A DNA stretch of 64,000 nt from Lindgomyces ingoldianus (lineage: Eukaryota; Ascomycota; Dothideomycetes; Pleosporales; Lindgomycetaceae). The notes under the pieces were generated by a model. It worked only from the letters and a program-made list of their open reading frames with translations. It was not told the origin of the DNA and did no database searches. Shown here one piece after another: positions 1,377 to 17,116 of the stretch. Location of the stretch: contig NW_022985183.1 of NCBI RefSeq assembly GCF_010093535.1, positions 470,956-534,955 on the forward strand, in the 5' to 3' direction. Positions within the stretch are counted from its first letter, which is position 1. Every line of letters begins with the position of its first letter. The translations under genes and the position numbers were made by a program.

Positions 1377-1568
1377 TAAGTTGTTAGATTGAAGCACTGT
1401 TTCTAGGCTTCCTGAGATGAATGATGGGTTTGGATATGATGTATGGGATGATGATTGATTGTATTGATCGTGTTGATTTTTCGATCCTTTTTCTGCTCTA
1501 CTCGTGTTGCTCGGCTTTTGTTTTTTTCGATCCGAGTCCCTCGCGCACTAGCCCTATGCGCGACCAGC

Positions 1569-1628
1569 TTGCAACATGCTGCAATTTGCTGCAATTTGCT
1601 GCAACATGCTGCAAAATGCTGCAATTTG
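1569..1628. repeat. 10-bp minisatellite, left block
   Basis: About six copies of the unit TGCTGCAANN, in which the last two bases are only CA, TT or AA. It is part of the Copia LTR. Because the unit is not a multiple of three and lacks stops, it creates spurious open frames on both strands. Confidence 0.95.
1621..1628. repeat. 8-bp target-site duplication, left copy
   Basis: GCAATTTG lies immediately left of the terminal repeat at 1629 and recurs at 11925-11932 immediately right of the other terminal repeat. The insertion is inside a 10-bp tandem repeat, so a match of this length could partly reflect the repeat itself. Confidence 0.65.
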
Positions 1629-1662
1629 TTATCTCAGCTAGCTCAGCCGGCTGATGAGAGAA
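1629..1662. repeat. Left terminal inverted repeat of the 10.3-kb element
   Basis: It begins TTATCTCAGCTAGCTCAG and matches the reverse complement of 11891-11924. Just inside it lie small inverted repeats (about 1696-1711, TACTCC...GGAGTA; and about 1720-1736, GGGTT...AACCC). Confidence 0.88.
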
Positions 1663-2285
1663 CCGACAACGCACATACCACCATGCATACTGCTACTCCT
1701 AACGGAGTATAACCCAGGGTTAGTGGTTTTAAACCCCTGCAACTAACGTTTTCTCTTATTAGCTGTCTAAAGGACTTTAGTGATTTTTTGTGTACACAAC
1801 TAATTTTAACTGCTTAAGAATAAAGACGTGATTTTTAATAGTACAATAAGTATATTATACACAGACTCTAAAAGTTAATACAACGCGTGAAACTTTAGTA
1901 AGAACATTATAAGCATATTTTAAACAGAATCTAATAATGTCTAGGGCAATTTAAATCTATCTGCGCGCGTAACGCAACCTTTTCTACAACTAATTTCACG
2001 CGTTACTCTAAACCCCCCCCCCTCTTATTATCTACGCCTATGTATTGCAAGGCACTTATATTTTAGGCGCTATTTGTCTTTGCTATTATAAACTACCTCT
2101 AGCTTCTAGATCTGCTAATTTTGTCCTGTGCGTATAGTTCTATTGCAGTAGGTAAAACAGTACTAACACTTGCGTAGTAAGCAGTTTAGACACTAAATAT
2201 TATAAGTATCTTTTTACATATTATTTATGTATTTATTTACACACCTTTTAATGTGTACTGCTAATTATTTGCTGTAGTAGCTACT

Positions 2286-5200
2286 ATGCAGACTAGAGGG
2301 CCAGGTTAGCGCGCAGGGAATTAGGGTTTAGGTAGGAGGCCAGCACAAGTACAGCTTGCGCTAAGTCTTCTAGCTGTCTGCTTAGAAAAGACTACTTATT
2401 TAGTGCTAGATAAGGACTATATAGTGCTAAATTAAGTATATAGACTAGCTAGTGTAATACTTTTTTATGTTAAAGCCTGTTATACTCTAAGTGCTAATGC
2501 CTTATAGAATTTAGTATATAAGTGTTTTATAAAGTGTAATATCTAGTATTAAACACTATTGCTTACTTAGGCTATGCAGAAGTTATTAGGCAGTAGGGAG
2601 CTATATAAGCAGCAGGTGCGCGCTGTCTATTAGCTTATGTATAGCCTTAGAGATATAATCCTTATAGCCTGCACTAGCTTTAAAAAAAGTATTATTTTAT
2701 ATGTGTATTTTATGTTTACAGGCAGCATTACGCTTTAGATTATACTACTGTTAAAGCTAAAAAATAAGTAGTTTAAAGTAATCTACTAGTATTCTAGAGC
2801 ATGTCTATGTCTAGTTACTAAATAAATAAAAAATGCTAACTTAAAAATATTCTAGAAGATCTAGTAGCTTTTATACACTTATATTTTACTAAGTTTAAAG
2901 TAGGCTGCATTACTAGTGTTCTAATAGCTATTTACTAACACTATATTCTATGCTTAGGTTAGGTTAGTAGCATTAGATAAGTGCTATATTATATAACAGT
3001 AAAAAAATTTCTAGAAAAAGTATTTATAGTTTTATAAGCTCTAGTAGTGTTTATCTTTTAATATAATGTTCTTTACTTATACTGCTATGTTTAATAAGCA
3101 GACAGAAGAGGCAGTACGCTGTTTTAGTAGCTTTAGGCTAGAGGGTCTAGGGATAGGTAATAATCTAATAGGCAGCCTAGAGGTAATTAGAACATGCGTA
3201 GATTACTCTAAGATTGCGTACGCTATTATTTTAATTAATAATTATAGTAAGAGCATGTATGCTTAGCTCTTACATATTATTAATTATAAGTTTAGTACTA
3301 CTAGTTCTTCTAGCAACCTAAAGCTTATTCTAAAGACATGTGTGTTTATTAATAGTTACACCTATATTACTAACCTTATAAAGCTCCTCTAATCTTGTCT
3401 TATGTTAGATAGACACTACTCTATAGCAGATGCTAAGAAGGTAGTCTAGGCGTATACTAGTTAGGTTGCAGACACAAACTAGCAGAAGATATATTAAAAT
3501 TTTAAAAGCGCTAATGCCTCTATCTAGATTATTGTCTATACAACTATGCTTAGGATAAGTATAGATATCTCTAGAATTAAGCAGGTATACTAATAAGACA
3601 TCTTAATTACTTAAGATATAAGTAATTTAATGTAGTAGTTTAGTTATAGCATATATAGTTATAGTAAGACTATAGTTACTATATTATTTATCCTTTTTTA
3701 TATGTTTAACTGTCTTAGCACTAATCTAGATGCAAGTAATAGACAGGCTAGCAGCTAGGTAAAGTAAAAGATAAAAAAAAGGCAACCTATAAAAGTAAAA
3801 GATTATTATAAAATAAAGCTTTTTATATTAAGGTAAACAATAACTATAACGTTGCTAGATTAGGCATCTGCTAGTAGTAGTTAGACACCTGTTACTCCTG
3901 CTATAACACCTCTGCCTAGGTCTACACCCCTACACAATAAACCTAAATTAGAGGCTGCAGAAGAGGGGGTTAAAAGCACTTTAGCTAATTTATAAAATTA
4001 TGTAGTTACATTTTAGTATAATAAACACAAAAGTAGACCCTCTAATTAGATAAATAAATAGCTAAACTAATAAGCTAGCATTAAGCTTAAGTAGTAAAAC
4101 CTAATTAACTCTAAGTGTTATTATAAGCACTTACTTTAGTATTTCTAAAATAACTTATTTATATAATTAACATAGCAACCTTTTTTAGAAAAGGTTGCCT
4201 ATTGCATAGGTTATAATCTAGCACTTATGCTATATTAAAGCGCCTTACCTCTGCCTACTAAAAAGACTGCGCTAACGCTAAAAAGTAAGGCTAGCCTTAC
4301 GTTACAGCATATTTAAAAGATATGTTAGGCATTTACTCTTTAGTACTTTTTAAAGGTCTATAGTGTGTTTAAGAATAATATTTTAGTTTTACTTTTATTT
4401 TTAGTGTTTTTTTTATACCTAAACTAATAGAAGCTAGTAAGGCTTATTACTAAACAAAAAAATATTAAAAGTAATAAAGTTATAGTGCTTATTAAGTCTA
4501 GTAAGTATAGCACTAGTAGTGTACAGAATTGTCTGCTATTAGACTAAGAGTTTATAAAGTTGCATCTAGCATTTATTAAAAGCAAGTTTAAGCGTATTAT
4601 GCTTATAGTATAAAGTAAGTTTTATAAAAACAACACACTTCCTAGAATAGGCAACGTCTCTAGGTTGCTAAGTATACACAATGCTACTAGAGCTTTATTA
4701 AGTAGTTATATATAAAATAACAGTCTAGCTATATAGGCTACATAATATAAATATTACTAGCAATAGAACTAGTTAGAGTAATATAGTCTACCTCTTAAAC
4801 TAGTTATAATTAATATATTATTTAAGTCTATAGTGTTAACTATAGTACTAGAGTTACTATTTAATAACAACTTTTCTTTATAAAATAATTTCTTGCCTAG
4901 TAATATTTCTAGTTATTAAGGCAGTTTTTTTATAGTTATAGCACACTTTTTTAGTCTAAATAGTTTATTTGTAGCAGCCTTTACTGCGTTTAGCGTACTA
5001 TACTTACTAGGTGTAGAGTTGTATATGTTGCTAAGGGACAGGCAATGCGCAGCTGTAATTATAAGGAGCCTTATACTAGCCTAGGTCCTACACACGCTAA
5101 CTAGTAGTAGTTACTACTTATTACTGCCTAGAATAGTCTTATTGCCTTTTATTATATTAAATAAAATTACTGTTAGCCTATGCGCTTCTAAGCTAGGTTA

Positions 5201-6930
5201 TAAAGGCAAACAGGCTATGTGCTAGTCCTCTATGCTACATACACTAAGATAGTTAAGAACTCTCTATACTCTAATTACTACAGTTTGTTAGAGCTTATTG
5301 CATAATGTAGATATATTACACACTAATTTAGTAGCTAGTGTAGTGTCTCTAAGCAGATTAACACATAAGCGTTAAAGGCGCCTATTAGATAATAAAGCAG
5401 CTAATATAAGTAGTATGCACATTTATTATAATGCAAATAAGCTGTAGTTAGATAGTTAGAAGTGTTATTAAAACATATTATTAACTCTAACTATATAAAG
5501 CTTAGGGATATATTAATAAAGGCGTAGGCAGTTTTTTCTAGAATACTAAACTAACTATGCTTATTCTTACTATAGTTTAGGTGTAAAGCGTTAGTAATAG
5601 CTTTACTTATTTAAACTAGTTTCCTAAAGCGCTGTACACTAGAGTAGACAGAGCAGCGCTTATAGGCAATTATTATTGTTATTCTTATAGCTGCCCTAGC
5701 ACATCCTCTTGTTTTATATAAGAAGGTTCTCTAAAGGGGTTGCCTATAGTGTAAGGTGCGTGCGTTTAGGGTGTTAGGTTTTATGCACAGTGCAGCTAAA
5801 AAAAAGGATGTAATAAATAAGCTTTATTTTTAACTTTAAAAAAAACACTTTATTAACTAAACATCTTTTTATAGACAGAAAGCGCGTTGCAGAAGACCTA
5901 TAAAATAAAAGAAGGCTACTAGGCTTACATCTTTATATTATTATGCTAGGCAAGTGCGTTATAGGGTAGGTTAAGCTTAAAGATAAACTTAGTAGCAGAT
6001 TTAAAGCTAGCTATAGTTCTAAGTAGAGATAGTAAGTATAAAAGAAAAGTTTAGTAAAGAGTTTTAGTAAAATAGATGTTAAATTTAAAAGTAGCTAAAA
6101 GAATTTAATAAAAAAACTTAGCATAGTTATAAGTATATATTACATGTCTGCGTATCTTTAGCGCATTATATAGAAGCCTAGGTAGAGCAACTTATAGGCA
6201 ATTGTTATTATTATTTTTAAAGAAGAGTATATAAGTAGCTGCAGCAGGTGTTGTTAATAATAAAGTTAAAATAAAGTATGCTAAGTATAGATATAATTTT
6301 TTAATTAAGTAGTTCTTTTAAAAATATGTGCTATATCTACACACTAGACCTATTAGCGCTTAGCTGCTTATATAAACGCACTATAAACACTTTTCTATAT
6401 AATAAACACACTTATATTAAATTATTTTTGTGTTAAATCTGCCTTATTTAGCTAACTAAGTAAAAGAATTAAATAATATAGACTATACATACTTCTTAGC
6501 TAGACAGTAACAGCTATCTAAACTAATAGGCACTCTTTAGGCTATCCTATGTAAGCGTAGAACTTTCTAGACTCTAAAGAGCTAGTTAACTAAAAAAGAT
6601 AGTTTTATGTAATATAGCTTTTAGCATATAATGCTTTACTGTCTGCTTAGAATCTTCCTAGGACTATAAGGATGCCCCTACTATAGTGCTCTACTAAGGA
6701 ATGTTTATATTGTACAACTAAGGGGACTTGTTAATAGACACTACCTAGCTGTAGAAGAGCCTAAACCTAGCCCTTAGCCTTATAACCTTAGGCACTATTA
6801 AGAATAATCTAAATAAAAACTAAATAGACTAAGCTAGATAGTAGTTTTATAGTAAAATTATCTAAATTATTTTTCCCTTAGTGCCTACTAATAAACTAGG
6901 TTTAGGAGAGACCTAGCTAAATAATTAGTA
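2286..6930 (+). pseudogene. RIP-inactivated RecQ-type DNA helicase (about 1,500 codons)
   Basis: One frame can be followed from an ATG at 2286 to at least 6731; in the parts I translated (nearly all of it) I saw no frameshift. The stops are TAA or TAG, as expected if CAA, CAG or TGG codons were hit by RIP. Helicase landmarks in order: motif I ACTSFKKSII (2667-2696, a mutated A-x-TG-x-GKS), a DExH-like LVALDKC (2964-2984), motif III FFTYTAM (3069-3089), and a helicase C-terminal segment with IIVYTTMLRISIDI ending near 3569. A late cysteine pair, CLYCTTKGTC (6702-6731), may be a zinc-binding site. RecQ relatives of this size are known from fungal subtelomeres and repeats. The true start and end are uncertain, and the gene cannot make a protein now. 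It lies inside the 10.3-kb element and converges on the DUF6589-like frame. Confidence 0.8.
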
Positions 6931-8764
6931 AACTAATTATTGTAATTAGATAAACTAATTATTATAGATGTCTTAAATGCCCTCTAATTACTCTCTAATT
7001 ACCCTTTAATAGCCCTCTAATTGCCCTCTAATTGCCCTCTAATTACCCACTAATACAGCATTGCTAAAGCAATATAGCAAATGTTGCATGTGCCTAGTTG
7101 CCTAATTGCTAGTACGCACTAGCACGCATGCAGTCCCTTCTAACTAGTACGCACTAGACTTTCTAGAACTCTGTCTTAACTTTGTGCCTGCTAATTATTG
7201 CTAATTGTTGTCTAAGGTAGCTAGGTCTAGGTCTAGGTCTAGCGTCTAGGAAGGAAACAGGAACAACAAAAAAAAAAAAGAAAAATAAGCATATAAAGCA
7301 TAATAATAAAATACATAACTGTAAATAAAAAAAAAAACTTAATCTAAAATAGTTATAGCCTAAAGTTATATTATAGTTAGTCTAAAAATATAAAAAGATT
7401 AGATATACTTATTAATACATAACACTAGCAACTAAATCTAACACATGCAACTATTTAAAAAAGGGCAGGAAGGTAATAAGCAACAGTTAAAAAGTAAATA
7501 TAGTTAATTAAAAAAAAGTATAGTAAGAAAAGGTTTAAGAACATAGTTAAGCAAAAAAAAAAAGTTTAAAGGCGTGTAAAAAGATAGTTTAGTTAATTAA
7601 AAAGAGTAATAAAAAAAGAAAAAGTAAGACTATATTACTGTAAAGTGTTTAGTACAGCCTAACGCATAGACAGAGGGAAGACTTAGCTAGTTAATAAAGG
7701 TAAATAAGCACTTATAAGGCAAGGTAGAGAATAGAGTAACTATACAGTGTTTAGTACAGCTTAAATTAAAAAAGTAGAAGAAACTTAGCTAATTAGAGTA
7801 AAAAAGTTAGAAATAATTAAAAAAAGTTTAACTAAAAAGAAAAGGCCTATATATACCTTAGCTTTTACTTTAGTAGCAAGAGCACTTAACTAGACTAGAG
7901 TTTCTGCCTAGCAGTAAAAGTACATGTTACAAGATTATTTAAAAGGATATAAAAGGCGCTAGTGTTTAACTAGCATAAAAAATTATAACTTTTTAATTAT
8001 TTTTTACTAATTATAACTAAAAATTGCCTAATTTAGAGGTAAAAGTAGGTAAAAATAAGTAAGATATAACATATATAAGTAATTATAAAGCATTAGATTA
8101 ATAATAAGCAGGCTAGGCAGCAGCAGTAAATAAAGAGAGAGAAAAGTCTTACTAAAGTAAATATATATTGCACGTAATTAATTAATTAGTGTTGTAGAGT
8201 TAAACTATGTTAAACAGCAGGTAGTAAATATAAGTAAATAGTTTATAATAATTAAAACACGCAGTAACATAACATTACTATAATTAAAATAGCTTTAGCT
8301 TCTTTAATTTTTAACTATAGTTTTACTTTAATATAGTTAAGCCTTTATATAACCTTATTTACTACTACTACATCTTTAAATTATTTAAGTAAGATATAAG
8401 CATTTTTATAGACCTTTTAAAACTATTAAACTAATAAGCATTATTATAATTAGAAAACCTTTAGAAATAGTAAGTGTATAAAACTATAATAGTATGCTAG
8501 CAACTAGGTAATCTATAGCTAGGAATTTGTCTTAATACATGCAATATGTAGATAGGCTGTGGGTTAGACAAAGGCGTACAAGCTAATACAAGGGGACTAG
8601 AGAGCAGTTACATACCTAACACTGCGCAGTTATTAAAACTAGTAAGCAACTAACAGCGCACAGCGTCTAATTAGCTGCACTAAGTAAATAGTGCTTTACA
8701 ACACTATTATACATCACAGAAGTGCTTGCTATAAGTATATATAAAATAAAAATATATAATTACT
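6931..8764. other. AT-rich spacer between the two reading frames of the 10.3-kb element
   Basis: Very AT-rich with poly-A tracts. It contains an 11-bp tandem repeat at about 6976-7050 and a short TAGGTC repeat near 7218-7240. No coding frame comparable with the two flanking ones was found. Confidence 0.5.
6976..7050. repeat. 11-bp imperfect tandem repeat
   Basis: Repeats of CCCTCTAATTG and variants (CTCTCTAATTA, CCTTTAATAG), about six units, just downstream of the RecQ-like frame. Confidence 0.8.
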
Positions 8765-11623
8765 TTATTTATCTTTAAAAGCTTTATTAAGACCTTTATT
8801 AAAATTACTATTAATTAAATTATTAACTAAACCCTTAGAGTTACTATAAGTTGTGCCCTTAACTATTTCTATAAATTCTGTTACATTAATATAACGCAAC
8901 TTCTCTACACTAATGCTTACTAGATTAGTTACATCTAGTGCTAGTATATAATTACTAGATATAACATTACTAATGTTAAAGTTTATAACTTTTAATGTTA
9001 ACAACTTAATACCACTAGTAATAATATTAGGGCTTATAATAGGCTAAAGGAGCCTTTAGTTAATCTAACTAGTTAAGCGCTTACAGCGCCTATAACTTAG
9101 CAGATAAATAGTAAGGGTAAATGTCTCTAGCTTAATATTATGCTATGTATGCTTATTCTTACTCTTCTTTTTAAAGGCGCCCTTTATTAGCGCACAGAGT
9201 TGCATATAGAACTAGTAAGATAGTGTAAGATAACTAAAGGTAAAGTTTATGTTATAAGTTTTATTCTTAAAGTGCTATATATTAAGCTTATACACATAGT
9301 TTATAAGCTTAAGCATAATATTAACTACTTAAAAAGTGTCTAGCTTTTTGTGTATATTAACTAACTTAAAGGCAAGTATAGACTGCTAAAGCGTTAAAGT
9401 TAACACCTTATTTAAGACTAACTAGCAAAGGTGTAGCAGCTTAGTACTATAGCGCTTTTAACTAGATCTAAAGAAGAATATAGCTAACAAATTAATTAAG
9501 TAATAAATAATTCTAATATTACTAAACTTAACTACATGCTGTAAAGTAAAGAACATCTTAATTTTTTAAAGAAACTAACATATTATTATCTAGTTACTTT
9601 TAGAATTATTATAGCCTTTTTATATAGTAAGTGTAAAGACTTTTTTATATATCTGCTTAAGTAACTTAATGTACTAGTTAGGCAAAAGCTAACTAATAGC
9701 CTTATTATAAAGACTTTACTAGTATTGCTAGACATCTGCTGCATAGATATCTAGCACCTAGCCTTAGAGATATCTACTATTGCCTATCTTTTAGTAGAAC
9801 AACGCAACTATTTAGGCGCCCTAGCTTAGATGTATTAGCAGCACAGCTATATAATACTTAACATTGCCCTAATTAATACTAGCACAGTTTAAGCGCATAA
9901 TATTATGTAAAAGATTACTAGAAAAGTCTATACCTTTAGGCATATTAAAGTGCGTACAAACAATTATATAAGTAAGTGCCTAAAAAATATAAAAATACGC
10001 AGGCAGTCTAATTATCTAATCCCTTCTATTATATAGCTAAGACGCGCTGCGCTGCTCTTTCTTAAGACTATATATAAACTTAGCAGTTTTCTAGTTGCCC
10101 TATACTATCTATAGCTATGTTTTAAAGCTTAGCTTTTTTAGATTTACAGAAATATTTAACTACTAGAGCTAAATATTATTATGCACTTTATAAGTCTTAT
10201 TAATAACGCCCTTATTAAAGAATATTACTTCTAGATAATTTACCTAGCTAAGTTTTTTACATAGTAGGACTTTAATAGCTAGCATTAACAGCAACTAGTC
10301 CTCTAAGCTAATAAAGACCCTTAATACAGCAGCACTATAGATAGCAGCTATAGTGTATAACATATAGCACAATGTAATTTGCTTGCTTATATAGTCCTAA
10401 ATTATGCCAGGCGCTATACAGATCTAATTAGGCTGCAATGCTATGCTAGAATTAAACATAGACTAGGTTAAACTGTCCTTAAAAATCTATAGACATCTTA
10501 TAATAAGCGCTGTTATTAGGTTCTGCTAGATAGCTATTACAACACCTACAGCATAGTTATAAGTCTAGTTAGTAAAGTTATAATTATTATACATAATTAT
10601 TAACTAAGAATTATGCGCAAGACCTAGTAGCTTAGCATTAAGTAAGACATAAGCTATATAATATAATATTATAACTTATAAGCTCTTTGTATAGTCTACT
10701 ATTTTATTAACCTTTTAGTTTATAATCTTATATAAGTTATAAACACCTAAGCCTAACAACATCTTTACAACACGCTGTTTTGTACTACTACTATGCAAAT
10801 ATAAACCTAGTAGGTAGGTAAGGTAGTTGCATCTCTTCTAGGCCTAGCAACATAAGATAATAGAAGTAATTAGATACACTTTACTATCTTATAAACTCTT
10901 AGCTTTACTATAACTGCCTTAAGCACTTTACTTATTCTGTAAAAGTCTCTTAATAAACTTACTTTAATTTAGAGCTTAATTAGCTATAATTAACTTTAAC
11001 TTAGCAAAATTAACCTTATTTAGCCTAAAGGCTGTATTATACTAGTTAAAGAACTTTTACTTAATAAGACTATTAAGTTCTCTTATAAACATAATAAAAC
11101 TAAAGACACTAGTAGCCTTATTATCTTTACTTAATGCTACATAAATGTTTAGCTATTCTAGTGCTAATTAAAGAATTATCCTGCGTCTACTAGGTAGTAG
11201 GGCCCTTAACAACAGCAGGTCTTATAAATATAACTTAACAAATTTGCCTATTAGCATCTGCAGCTTATCTATTAACGCTAGGACCTGCTCTAGTTTCCTT
11301 AATCTTAAGGTGTAAATAGGTGCAGACAACTAGACACGCTAAGTAGACGCGCCTGCTACTTATAGAGTTGTAAAGGGATAAGTTGTTAGAACTAGGGCCT
11401 AAGGCTTAGCAGCAACCACAAACAAAGGCGAGGAGGACATAGGAGGAGGTGACAATAGAGGTGACAATAGAGGAGGTAGCAGCTTATCTGCTGGAGGAAG
11501 ATGAGAGGGTTGTGGACGCTGGCGCGGACGCGGGGTAGGACTAGTGGACTTATTGGCTATTTTGTACAGTAAACAACGTGCAAAACGCGTAACAATTTAA
11601 TAGATAATAGCAAGAAGTTGCAT
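8765..11623 (-). pseudogene. RIP-inactivated DUF6589-like protein (952 codons)
   Basis: An ATG at 11623 and a stop at 8765-8767 lie in the same frame. Segments I translated at the start, middle and end all stay in that frame, so no indel is needed. Internal stops are TAA or TAG. The N-terminus is proline-rich (PTPRPRQRPQPSHLPP). Mid-protein phrases such as IALQPNQICIAPG, VINKTYKVHNNI, GN-KTAKFIYSLKKEQ and LYNRRD, followed late by SKNKHT (9146-9163), follow the order of blocks I recall for the fungal DUF6589 family (compare VHGDQ-T, YDRR-W and GKHT). Function is unknown. The spaced acidic residues make a nuclease or transposase role conceivable, but that is inference. It is the best transposase candidate in the element. 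The assignment is from memory of the family, without a search. Confidence 0.65.
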
Positions 11624-11849
11624 AGCTGTTGGCCTAAAGTTTAGAGATGTTTAGAGAGGAGGAAGGATGCGTAAATATCAATACAATGTATCCTCATACA
11701 AAAAGCGAGCACTGAAATCGGTCGTCCATACAATTGATCACCAAAGTCCCTCAGACGGCTGGGGAGAGAAGCTAAATCTAGCATCCTTATTGGCCAGAAA
11801 GATAGCGTGAGCGCCACCGGCGCGACTAGCATGGGTTTATGTTGACTAG

Positions 11850-11893
11850 CAAGGGTATCAGGGGCTCTGCCCCTGTCGGGGCTTCGCCCCTTC
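11850..11893. repeat. Paired GC-rich hairpins at the right end of the 10.3-kb element
   Basis: Two adjacent perfect stems, GGGGCTCTGCCCC and GGGGCTTCGCCCC, lie just inside the right terminal repeat in a segment not altered by RIP. Subterminal hairpins of this kind can be protein-binding or folding sites in transposon ends. Confidence 0.75.
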
Positions 11894-11924
11894 TCTCCCC
11901 AATCGGCTGAGCTAGCTGAGATAA
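11891..11924. repeat. Right terminal inverted repeat of the 10.3-kb element
   Basis: It ends GCTAGCTGAGATAA and is the inverted match of 1629-1662. The right copy of the GCAATTTG duplication follows at 11925-11932. Confidence 0.88.
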
Positions 11925-12050
11925 GCAATTTGCTGCAACATGCTGCAACATGCTGCAAAATGCTGCAATTTGCTGCAAAATGCTGCAATTTGCTGCAACA
12001 TGCTGCAAAATGCTGCAACATGCTGCAAAATGCTGCAATTTGCAGCAACA
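11925..12050. repeat. 10-bp minisatellite, right block
   Basis: About twelve further units of TGCTGCAANN (NN = CA, TT or AA), ending with TGCAGCAACA. With the left block this LTR holds about 18 units, against two or three in the right LTR (near 17005-17031), so the array expanded after the Copia insertion. Confidence 0.95.
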
Positions 12051-12316
12051 TACTGTTCGAGCTTATTGCTCGTACNNNNNNNNNNNNNNNNNNNNNNNNN
12101 NNNNNNNNNNNNNNNNNNNNNNNNNNNNNNNNNNNNNNNNNNNNNNNNNNNNNNNNNNNNNNNNNNNNNNNNNNNNNNNNNNNNNNNNNNNNNNNNNNNN
12201 NNNNNNNNNNNNNNNNNNNNNNNNNNNNNNNNNNNNNNNNNNNNNNNNNNNNNNNNNNNNNNNNNNNNNNNNNNNGAGAGACTTCCTGTCGGAGCCAGTG
12301 GTTATGGATGTTGACA
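11933..12316 (-). repeat. Left LTR of the Copia element, second part (contains gap)
   Basis: It continues the LTR after the nested insertion. The stretch 12041-12075 (TGCAGCAACATACTGTT, then GCTTATTGCTCGTAC) matches 17021-17055. After the gap, 12281-12316 aligns loosely with 17083-17116 and ends TGACA at the same relative point. Confidence 0.75.
12076..12275. other. Assembly gap (200 N)
   Basis: A round 200-N run, probably a placeholder of unknown true length, directly after the expanded minisatellite in the LTR. Confidence 0.97.
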
Positions 12317-15300: not shown

Positions 15301-16815
15301 GTAGTATAAGACTATATGCTTAACTATGTGTTTTATGCTTACTTTTTAAGCTTAGTGTAATTAATTTATAGCTTTAAATTTATATATAAGAGTTTTTAAA
15401 CTAAATAAAGTTTTCTAGTATTAGTAAATAATAGTTATAAATTTAATTAAAATTATTTATAATATAGCATGTTAAGCTTAAGTTAAGGATAAATAATTTT
15501 TTTAGTAAATATTTATTCTAGTTTAAATTAACTATAGCTAGCAATATAGCTGCTTTAACTTTTAATACTTTTTAGCTTTTAAGTTAGTCTTCTTATATCT
15601 TTAGCATAGGTGTATATAAACTTTTTAGAATTAGTATTTTTAAATTATGTCTACACTGCTTTTTTAGTAGGCCTTAAAATTCTAAGTTATGCTTATGCTT
15701 TAATGCTATAAGCTTTTTAACTTTTTTATTTAGCATCTACTAGTCTAGTGCTTTGTCTAAATAGACATAGAAGTAGTTCTTTAATACATAGATATGTCTA
15801 CATGTAGGATATTTAGTGCCTTCTGTTTTAGTAAGTTTCTAGCTTAAAAATAACTTTCTATTATTTTTTTAATAACATTAATGTTAAGGTTTACTTTATT
15901 TTCTTAACATTATAACTTTTACACTATAGGTGTTCTTATTTATGCCTTAAGTAGTCTTTTTACTTTTAGTAAAGTATAATAAGTTATCTGTTATAAAAGC
16001 AGCTTTATGCTTTTTTATATATATTAAATAATTTAATATTATATGTTTTTAAAAGCGCTTTATTATTTTTTTTTAATTTATGTTTAGTGTAAACTATTTG
16101 CTTTTCTAAAAAGTTATAGACTAATAAGGGGTAACTTTATTTATAGTAGTTAAAAAGTCTTTTATAACAGCATTAAACTATGTTGTTTCTAGAACATTTT
16201 ATGTCTCTACTTCTATAGCAGCGTAATTATACTCTGCTAGCTATAAGTTCTATATGCTTACGTTTCTTAGCAGCTTTAGAGATGTATTATATTAGTTGTG
16301 CACATATTCTTGTTTAAATTAGTTGTTAACGCCTACTATAGCTTTAAAGTTTATAATCTACTATCTAAGTAGTTAATCTAGGGAACAGCATGTATACTGC
16401 AGATGCGGGCTAACTATTAACTAGATAAAGATAATAATCTGTTAAAAGCTTAATTACTTTTTTTTATAATTATGTTTATTACTCTTGTACTTATTAGCCT
16501 TAATTTTATAGTATTTAATAGCTTTTTTAAAGGCTCTAACACTACTTATTAATAGCTTGTTTATGTGCATAGGCGTTTTAATATTAGAGGCTAGTAAAAA
16601 CTTAGCTATTAGCAGCATCTCTAGAGCTCTTAGTTTAGAGATCATTTAGATAGTTAACTTAGGATCCACTTGCGGCCAGATGCTGTGCGCTACACATCTC
16701 AATTGCAGCTGCATCATCCAGGCTCTGTAGTCGGTGTGGTCTCGAAGGACGACTGTCGCGTCTCAAGGAGGCTGGGTGGCTATTTTGTATTAATGGAGGC
16801 ACTAAGACTCTTAAT
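12317..16815 (-). pseudogene. Copia gag-pol remains (GAG-pre-integrase, reverse transcriptase)
   Basis: On the minus strand a reverse-transcriptase segment reads VYTYKLNKH (13504-13530), then later FVFFYVDNLIIAHR (13084-13125). The latter is the Copia YVDD box with its second Asp changed to Asn, a GAC/GAT to AAC change typical of RIP. Text after it (EKYTLIRGKDL) matches the post-box region of fungal Copia RTs. Near 14,900-15,043 a GAG-pre-integrase-like block reads HKCLRHPRLATL followed by AKGV and YSKAK. It lies in another frame from the RT, so at least one indel exists. Stops are dense. RNase H would lie at 12,317-12,950, and gag near 16,000-16,650. Confidence 0.82.
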
Positions 16816-17116
16816 TGTTAGATTAAAGCACTATTTCTAGGCTTCCTAAGATAAATAATAGGTTTAGATATAATATATAGGATAATAATTAATTGTATTA
16901 ATTATGTTAATTTTTTAATCCTTTTTCTGCTCTACTTGTGTTGCTTAGCTTTTGTTTTTTTTAATCTAAGTCCCTTGCGCACTAGCCCTATGCGCGACTA
17001 GCTTGCAACATGCTGCAATTTGCAGCAACATACTGTTTAAGCTTATTGCTCGTACTATGTAGCCGCTTTTCGTCAAACGTTCCTCCTGTCTTGACAGTAG
17101 GTGCGCATATCTGACA
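16816..17116 (-). repeat. Right LTR of the Copia element (301 bp), RIP-mutated
   Basis: It begins TGTTAGATT and ends TGACA. Compared with the left LTR, the changes are C to T and G to A. For the minus-strand element this is the 5' LTR. The adjoining 16,660-16,815 has normal composition and is the expected leader, but I could not match a primer-binding site. Confidence 0.85.

Follow-up and report, generated by a model that had tools for sequence, protein, structure and literature searches.

Does a RecQ-like helicase gene lying beside a DUF6589 gene between inverted ends represent the gene set of a transposon, or merely two repeats that became nested by chance? The question is raised by a 10.3-kb element located mid-contig in a 64,000-nucleotide stretch of the Lindgomyces ingoldianus genome (contig NW_022985183.1, positions 470,956 to 534,955; the whole stretch is called the window here). 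The element is very probably a dead copy of a large terminal inverted repeat (TIR) DNA transposon that was mutated by repeat-induced point mutation (RIP), with the DUF6589 protein as a DDE-type transposase and, as the weaker part of this reading, the helicase as its partner. Its features in window positions, the genes being delimited by homology to a less damaged copy (C33:455007-465650) and to the intact DUF6589 protein P0001, are as follows.

1629-11924: whole element, 10.3 kb, with inverted ends TTATCTCAGCTAGCTCAGCCG
1629..1662, plus strand: left terminal inverted repeat, outer 21 bases TTATCTCAGCTAGCTCAGCCG
11891..11924, minus strand: right terminal inverted repeat
1621..1628: left copy of the target duplication GCAATTTG, within a TGCTGCAA array and uninformative taken alone
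11925..11932: right copy of the target duplication GCAATTTG
1381..1628, plus strand: left portion of the interrupted long terminal repeat (LTR)-like repeat, second copy at about 16815-17055
11925..12075, plus strand: right portion of the interrupted LTR-like repeat; 12076-12275 is N
2400..5513 (C22:473355-476468), plus strand: RIP-broken RecQ-like helicase gene, homologous to the 1038-residue C33 reading; 78 stops
8801..10645, minus strand: RIP-broken DUF6589 gene, portion homologous to P0001; 44 stops
9149..10270, minus strand: match to Pfam PF20231 (DUF6589), E 2.9e-15, stops as X, frame residues 444-817

A preliminary description of this locus had proposed 34-bp inverted ends with 21 identical outer bases, and its coordinates proved exact, with the terminal arms identical at 21/21 outer bases and at 30/34 overall. 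The 8-bp duplication that it reported is likewise present. Because GCAATTTG recurs in the flanking TGCTGCAA array (three times on the left and four times on the right, the duplication included), this single site is weak evidence, which becomes strong because the other copies are also flanked by duplications (13/13 paired copies, this one included). Both flanks match the region around 16815-17055 (86% identity between 1381-1594 and 16815-17028, 94% between 12024-12075 and 17004-17055), and the element therefore interrupts one of two LTR-like repeats; the earlier claim of an interrupted Copia LTR stands in this respect, whereas the Copia label lies outside that evidence.

The window element is a dead copy full of RIP-type changes. 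Its composition is RIP-like (GC 0.304, TA/AT 1.84), and it contains no stop-free frame of 130 amino acids. Of the two large convergent frames originally described, the convergent genes are real, but the frames are not open, with 46 TAG and 32 TAA codons in the helicase stretch and 35 TAG and 9 TAA codons in the DUF6589 stretch. The C33 copy, which is the least damaged of the 13 paired copies in the window's family, was spared much of the RIP (GC 0.43 versus 0.28 to 0.32 in six other profiled copies), but it still carries stops and altered acidic residues. An 11-bp tandem unit, CCCTCTAATTA, is found at window positions 6980-7054, close to the middle of the element.

The other copies were counted in this one genome (68.4 Mb, 99 contigs). 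With the first 272 bp of the element as the query, all 40 matches scored, out of 94 candidates, start at base 1, and with the last 272 bp, 25 of 38 matches reach the last base and 13 fall short. Left and right ends could be paired for 13 copies of the window's family, while other lone or truncated ends were left unpaired. These 13 copies, including the window element, are bounded by the same ends with at most a few single-base differences, and each has a perfect 8-bp duplication that differs from those of the others. Twelve of them were fetched in full, and the 11 other than C33 each span C33 over 100% of its length, nine without a break at 81 to 88% identity and two with inserted extra sequence.

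The same kind of insertion extends beyond this family. Duplications were tested where both ends of an insertion could be placed. Perfect 8-bp duplications were found in shortened relatives of 1.2 to 3.2 kb (7/7, two with N stretches), in a full-length second-family copy (1/1; C1:1229079-1239534, 10,456 bp), in all six tested members of family B, and in all nine other insertions examined (four belonging to family C, two carrying second-family ends, and three of 0.9 to 1.2 kb). The sole exception among the 37 tested insertions is a nested 28-kb copy on C11 with a 7-bp duplication, so that the total is 36/37, and the 8-bp duplication reported for the window is general. The 36 eight-mers are all distinct; 27 start and 29 end with C or G. 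Patterns of the ends match the genome 44 times with up to one mismatch and 177 times with up to two, and reversed control patterns gave 0 matches. Among 12 joined flanks, the insertions on C33 and C16 have uninterrupted paralogous sites that span the join (10 and 12 places, respectively, among the matches listed), the best C33 site comprising 139 bases at 86% identity with zero net gap. The join of the C34 insertion is crossed by a place on C47 that has only 17 bases on one side, and for the remaining nine flanks no uninterrupted site was seen in the genome.

Shared inverted ends and a duplication of constant length, the features of class II TIR DNA transposons, are thus both present, and the sequences indicate insertion with an 8-bp stagger, repeated mobilization, and the formation of shortened, end-sharing derivatives. 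In favor of the proposal in the preliminary description, full-length copies of the window's family retain both genes together with the 8-bp duplications.

Several observations concern individual groups of copies. Family B is divergent, with ends TTATCTCACGAGTCAG or TTATCTCACAAGTCAG, summarized as TTATCTCAC(G/A)AGTCAG, a matching two-gene layout, and DUF6589 proteins 23 to 26% identical to P0001. Its members are located as follows.

C4:1657577-1675392, C36:261343-271748, C1:1411163-1421531: family B members
C20:176883-187112, C52:45455-57575, C3:1676110-1692034: family B members, continued

Short derivatives (0.9 to 1.5 kb, one of 3.2 kb; 10 tested) have the common ends and 8-bp duplications. 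Their length is insufficient for both genes, and they are non-autonomous members resembling miniature inverted-repeat transposable elements. At C7:1645388-1645838, a sequence resembling a left end of the second family stands 70 bp after a right end belonging to the window's family, which is an arrangement of nested or adjacent insertions. The left end of one family C copy on C8 was searched for and not found.

The second line of evidence is the association of the two genes. Genome searches gave 44 matches for the helicase reading and 67 for P0001, which cluster into 37 helicase and 48 DUF6589 loci. A DUF6589 locus lies within 25 kb at 36/37 helicase loci, in convergent orientation in 36/36, and the pairing persists at 23/24 helicase loci when the window's own family (13 loci) is left out. 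The unpaired exception on C69 has a left end, and a DUF6589 match is absent from its contig; conversely, helicase matches are absent within 25 kb of 11/48 DUF6589 loci. The binomial probability of this pairing, 1.5e-51, assumes independent copies, which they are not, and the argument is therefore based on families, among which the paired DUF6589 proteins are 23 to 60% identical to P0001. The gene pair is found in several element families of this genome that are only distantly related to one another. Its recurrence in convergent order agrees with the original proposal of a transposon gene set.

Both genes were also under selection at the protein level. RIP produces transitions only, and transversions are thus a clean measure of selection. 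Between the C33 copy and the C1 family, 173/136/294 transversions were counted at codon positions 1/2/3 of the helicase and 157/108/249 in DUF6589; the comparison with C11 yielded 155/126/262 and 206/154/295, respectively. Both genes were therefore kept as proteins while the families diverged. Positions 6153-6609 and 4624-4913 of the C33 element lie outside the matched gene parts and can be aligned between families at 61 to 74% identity; they may be additional exons or conserved non-coding sequence.

What, then, might the DUF6589 protein do? Pfam scans of broken frames were run with stops read as X, and the C33 copy reached E 1.1e-38 for DUF6589; there, the frame conserved between families extends further, over element positions 7155-10106. 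With about 8,000 candidates scored in each homolog search, the broken frame retrieved 1 protein, and P0001 retrieved 48, among them proteins of Eremomyces bilateralis (Dothideomycetes) and Clathrospora elynae. The predicted structural model (predicted local distance difference test [pLDDT] score 85.4, predicted template modeling score 0.84) has Hermes and the P element as its closest solved folds, with VIA-align Z scores of 11.7 (289 aligned residues, root mean square deviation [rmsd] 6.6) and 9.2 (297, rmsd 5.2), followed by ISCth4 with 9.0 (231, rmsd 4.9) and Transib with 6.7 (296, rmsd 5.5); the first non-transposase row scores 5.3. The model thus strongly supports a fold nearest to DDE transposases, with an RNase-H-like core and a long helical insertion. 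In P0001 numbering, D31 is conserved in 31/31 rows that reach it, D195 in 45/47, E413 in 46/48, and both D453 and E457 in 48/48. Of these, D31, D195, and E457 are probably catalytic. E413 was also considered as the third residue, but E457 is the better candidate, because the last aligned residues appear to place it near the third catalytic position of Hermes, the P element, and Transib. The preliminary description had suggested looking for an RNase-H-like catalytic triad; the model predicts such a fold, with a probable triad, and the predicted fold and the conserved acidic residues of the intact relatives are what a DDE transposase should have.

At thresholds up to E 1, DUF6589 is the sole Pfam family that occurs in more than 2 of the 48 relatives, and the 12 other Pfam entries listed for them include no transposase family. 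Zero matches were obtained with the DUF6589 model in BFVD at E <= 0.001, with the DUF6589 alignment in viral_contigs, and with Pfam on second-family plus frames and on a single C11 minus frame.

The assignment of the window helicase to the RecQ-like family derives from the C33 copy only. In a six-frame Pfam scan of window positions 1900-11600, no helicase was detected and DUF6589 was the only match. The plus strand of C33 matches Helicase_C with E 0.0012 (0.0004 on a trimmed reading), which is below the curated cut-off, and this remained the only Pfam match of the RIP-damaged C33 helicase, with none to RQC or HRDC. Comparisons with RecQ profiles gave E 7.9e-6, 3e-5, and 2.1e-4, all below curated cut-offs, and a comparison with the PDB gave Escherichia coli RecQ (E 2.9e-4). 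The best matches are to RecQ, at sub-threshold scores, in one of five helicase pieces; the other four had zero matches to the RecQ profiles and Helicase_C, and the PDB match drops to E 0.053 when all five pieces are combined in one profile. A homolog search with the broken helicase found 0 proteins (about 8,000 candidates scored), and its AlphaFold2 model (pLDDT 31) is meaningless.

A search of the open-access literature, outside which Repbase lies, revealed zero papers on DUF6589 and, among the papers listed, no transposon with RecQ and DUF6589. The known systems compare with the element as follows. It is possible, but rather unlikely, that it represents an unrecognized branch of a known superfamily with 8-bp duplications (hAT, P element, or KDZ [Kyakuja, Dileera, Zisupton]) that acquired a helicase. 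The closest solved folds, Hermes and the P element, point in this direction, and hAT and P elements typically make 8-bp duplications. However, no sequence-profile similarity of the DUF6589 proteins to hAT or P elements was found: Pfam holds profiles for hAT as well as KDZ, and neither appeared in the all-Pfam scan of the 48 relatives up to E 1. Furthermore, the TTATCTCA ends are unlike hAT end motifs, and hAT and P elements are not known to carry a helicase. According to the passages of PMC12730594 on these elements, KDZ transposons are fungal, Zisupton and one Dileera family make 8-bp duplications, and some members carry a second enzyme gene; this enzyme is a TET/JBP dioxygenase, however, and Kyakuja is described there with 7-bp duplications and without inverted ends.

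Just as doubtful is the view that a subtelomeric RecQ gene was captured and travels with the element as a passenger, playing no part in its movement. Repeated subtelomeric RecQ-like genes are known in several fungi from the relevant parts of PMC4522978, PMC3017866, and PMC5576322, two of which report low GC or RIP for them, and a subtelomeric RecQ repeat with a transposase in Colletotrichum higginsianum was interpreted as a chimera (PMC5576322). The 11 DUF6589 loci that have no helicase match nearby fit this view. In contrast to those repeats, the helicase here belongs to an element that has inverted ends, duplications, and a DUF6589 gene, and that lies mid-contig in the window. Its constant orientation at 36/37 helicase loci, across families with such divergent DUF6589 proteins, and its protein-level constraint between families argue against a passenger.

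Membership in the AcademH lineage, with two functions divided over two genes, seems improbable. AcademH, compared by description only, is the closest described element. It encodes helicase and transposase in a single fused protein, whereas here two convergent genes occupy opposite strands at 36/37 loci. The likeness is that AcademH, in the portion of PMC10799480 devoted to it, is a fungal DNA-transposon group with DEAD/Helicase_C domains, and the C33 copy also encodes a superfamily 2 helicase, at profile scores below curated cut-offs; the difference is that the duplications given for it in PMC10045372 have 9 or 10 bp, compared to 8 bp here. RAG-like transposons make 5-bp duplications. As described in part of PMC7204232, their transposase gene is also convergent with a partner gene, but that partner is RAG2-like and not a helicase. 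The idea that a RecQ repeat and a DUF6589 repeat became nested by chance, flanked by inverted ends with no relation to them, is refuted for practical purposes, since, although nested repeats such as the 28-kb C11 copy exist in the genome, 11 other full copies are colinear with C33 throughout, the duplications are at the outer ends, and pairing is found at 36/37 helicase loci.

The reading of a large TIR transposon with a DUF6589 transposase is hence preferred. The role of the DUF6589 protein as a DDE-type transposase of the element, as first proposed, is strongly supported by the modeled fold and the conserved acidic residues; that the RecQ-like helicase may be a working partner of transposition is a weaker proposal. 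There is a fair chance that the system is its own superfamily, and the balance is even for an unrecognized DDE superfamily defined by a DUF6589 transposase, 8-bp duplications, TTATCTCA ends, and an obligate RecQ-like helicase in full-length members. The DUF6589 protein would bind the TTATCTCA ends, excise the element, and integrate it elsewhere through cuts staggered by 8 bp. The helicase might open the ends or the strand-transfer intermediate; alternatively, it might guide the repair of donor or target sites or resolve a joined intermediate. The remark by Kojima that differences in duplication length among Academ elements seem tied to helicase versus nuclease (within the text of PMC10045372) may serve as a precedent for a helicase role, and for nothing beyond that.

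These findings offer a testable function for DUF6589, a family that Pfam lists with unknown function. By revealing a fixed arrangement of two genes, one for a helicase and one for a likely DDE transposase, they also make the role of helicases in cut-and-paste transposition addressable. Finally, they offer a reason other than telomere biology for the possible recurrence of RecQ-like genes in fungal repeats.

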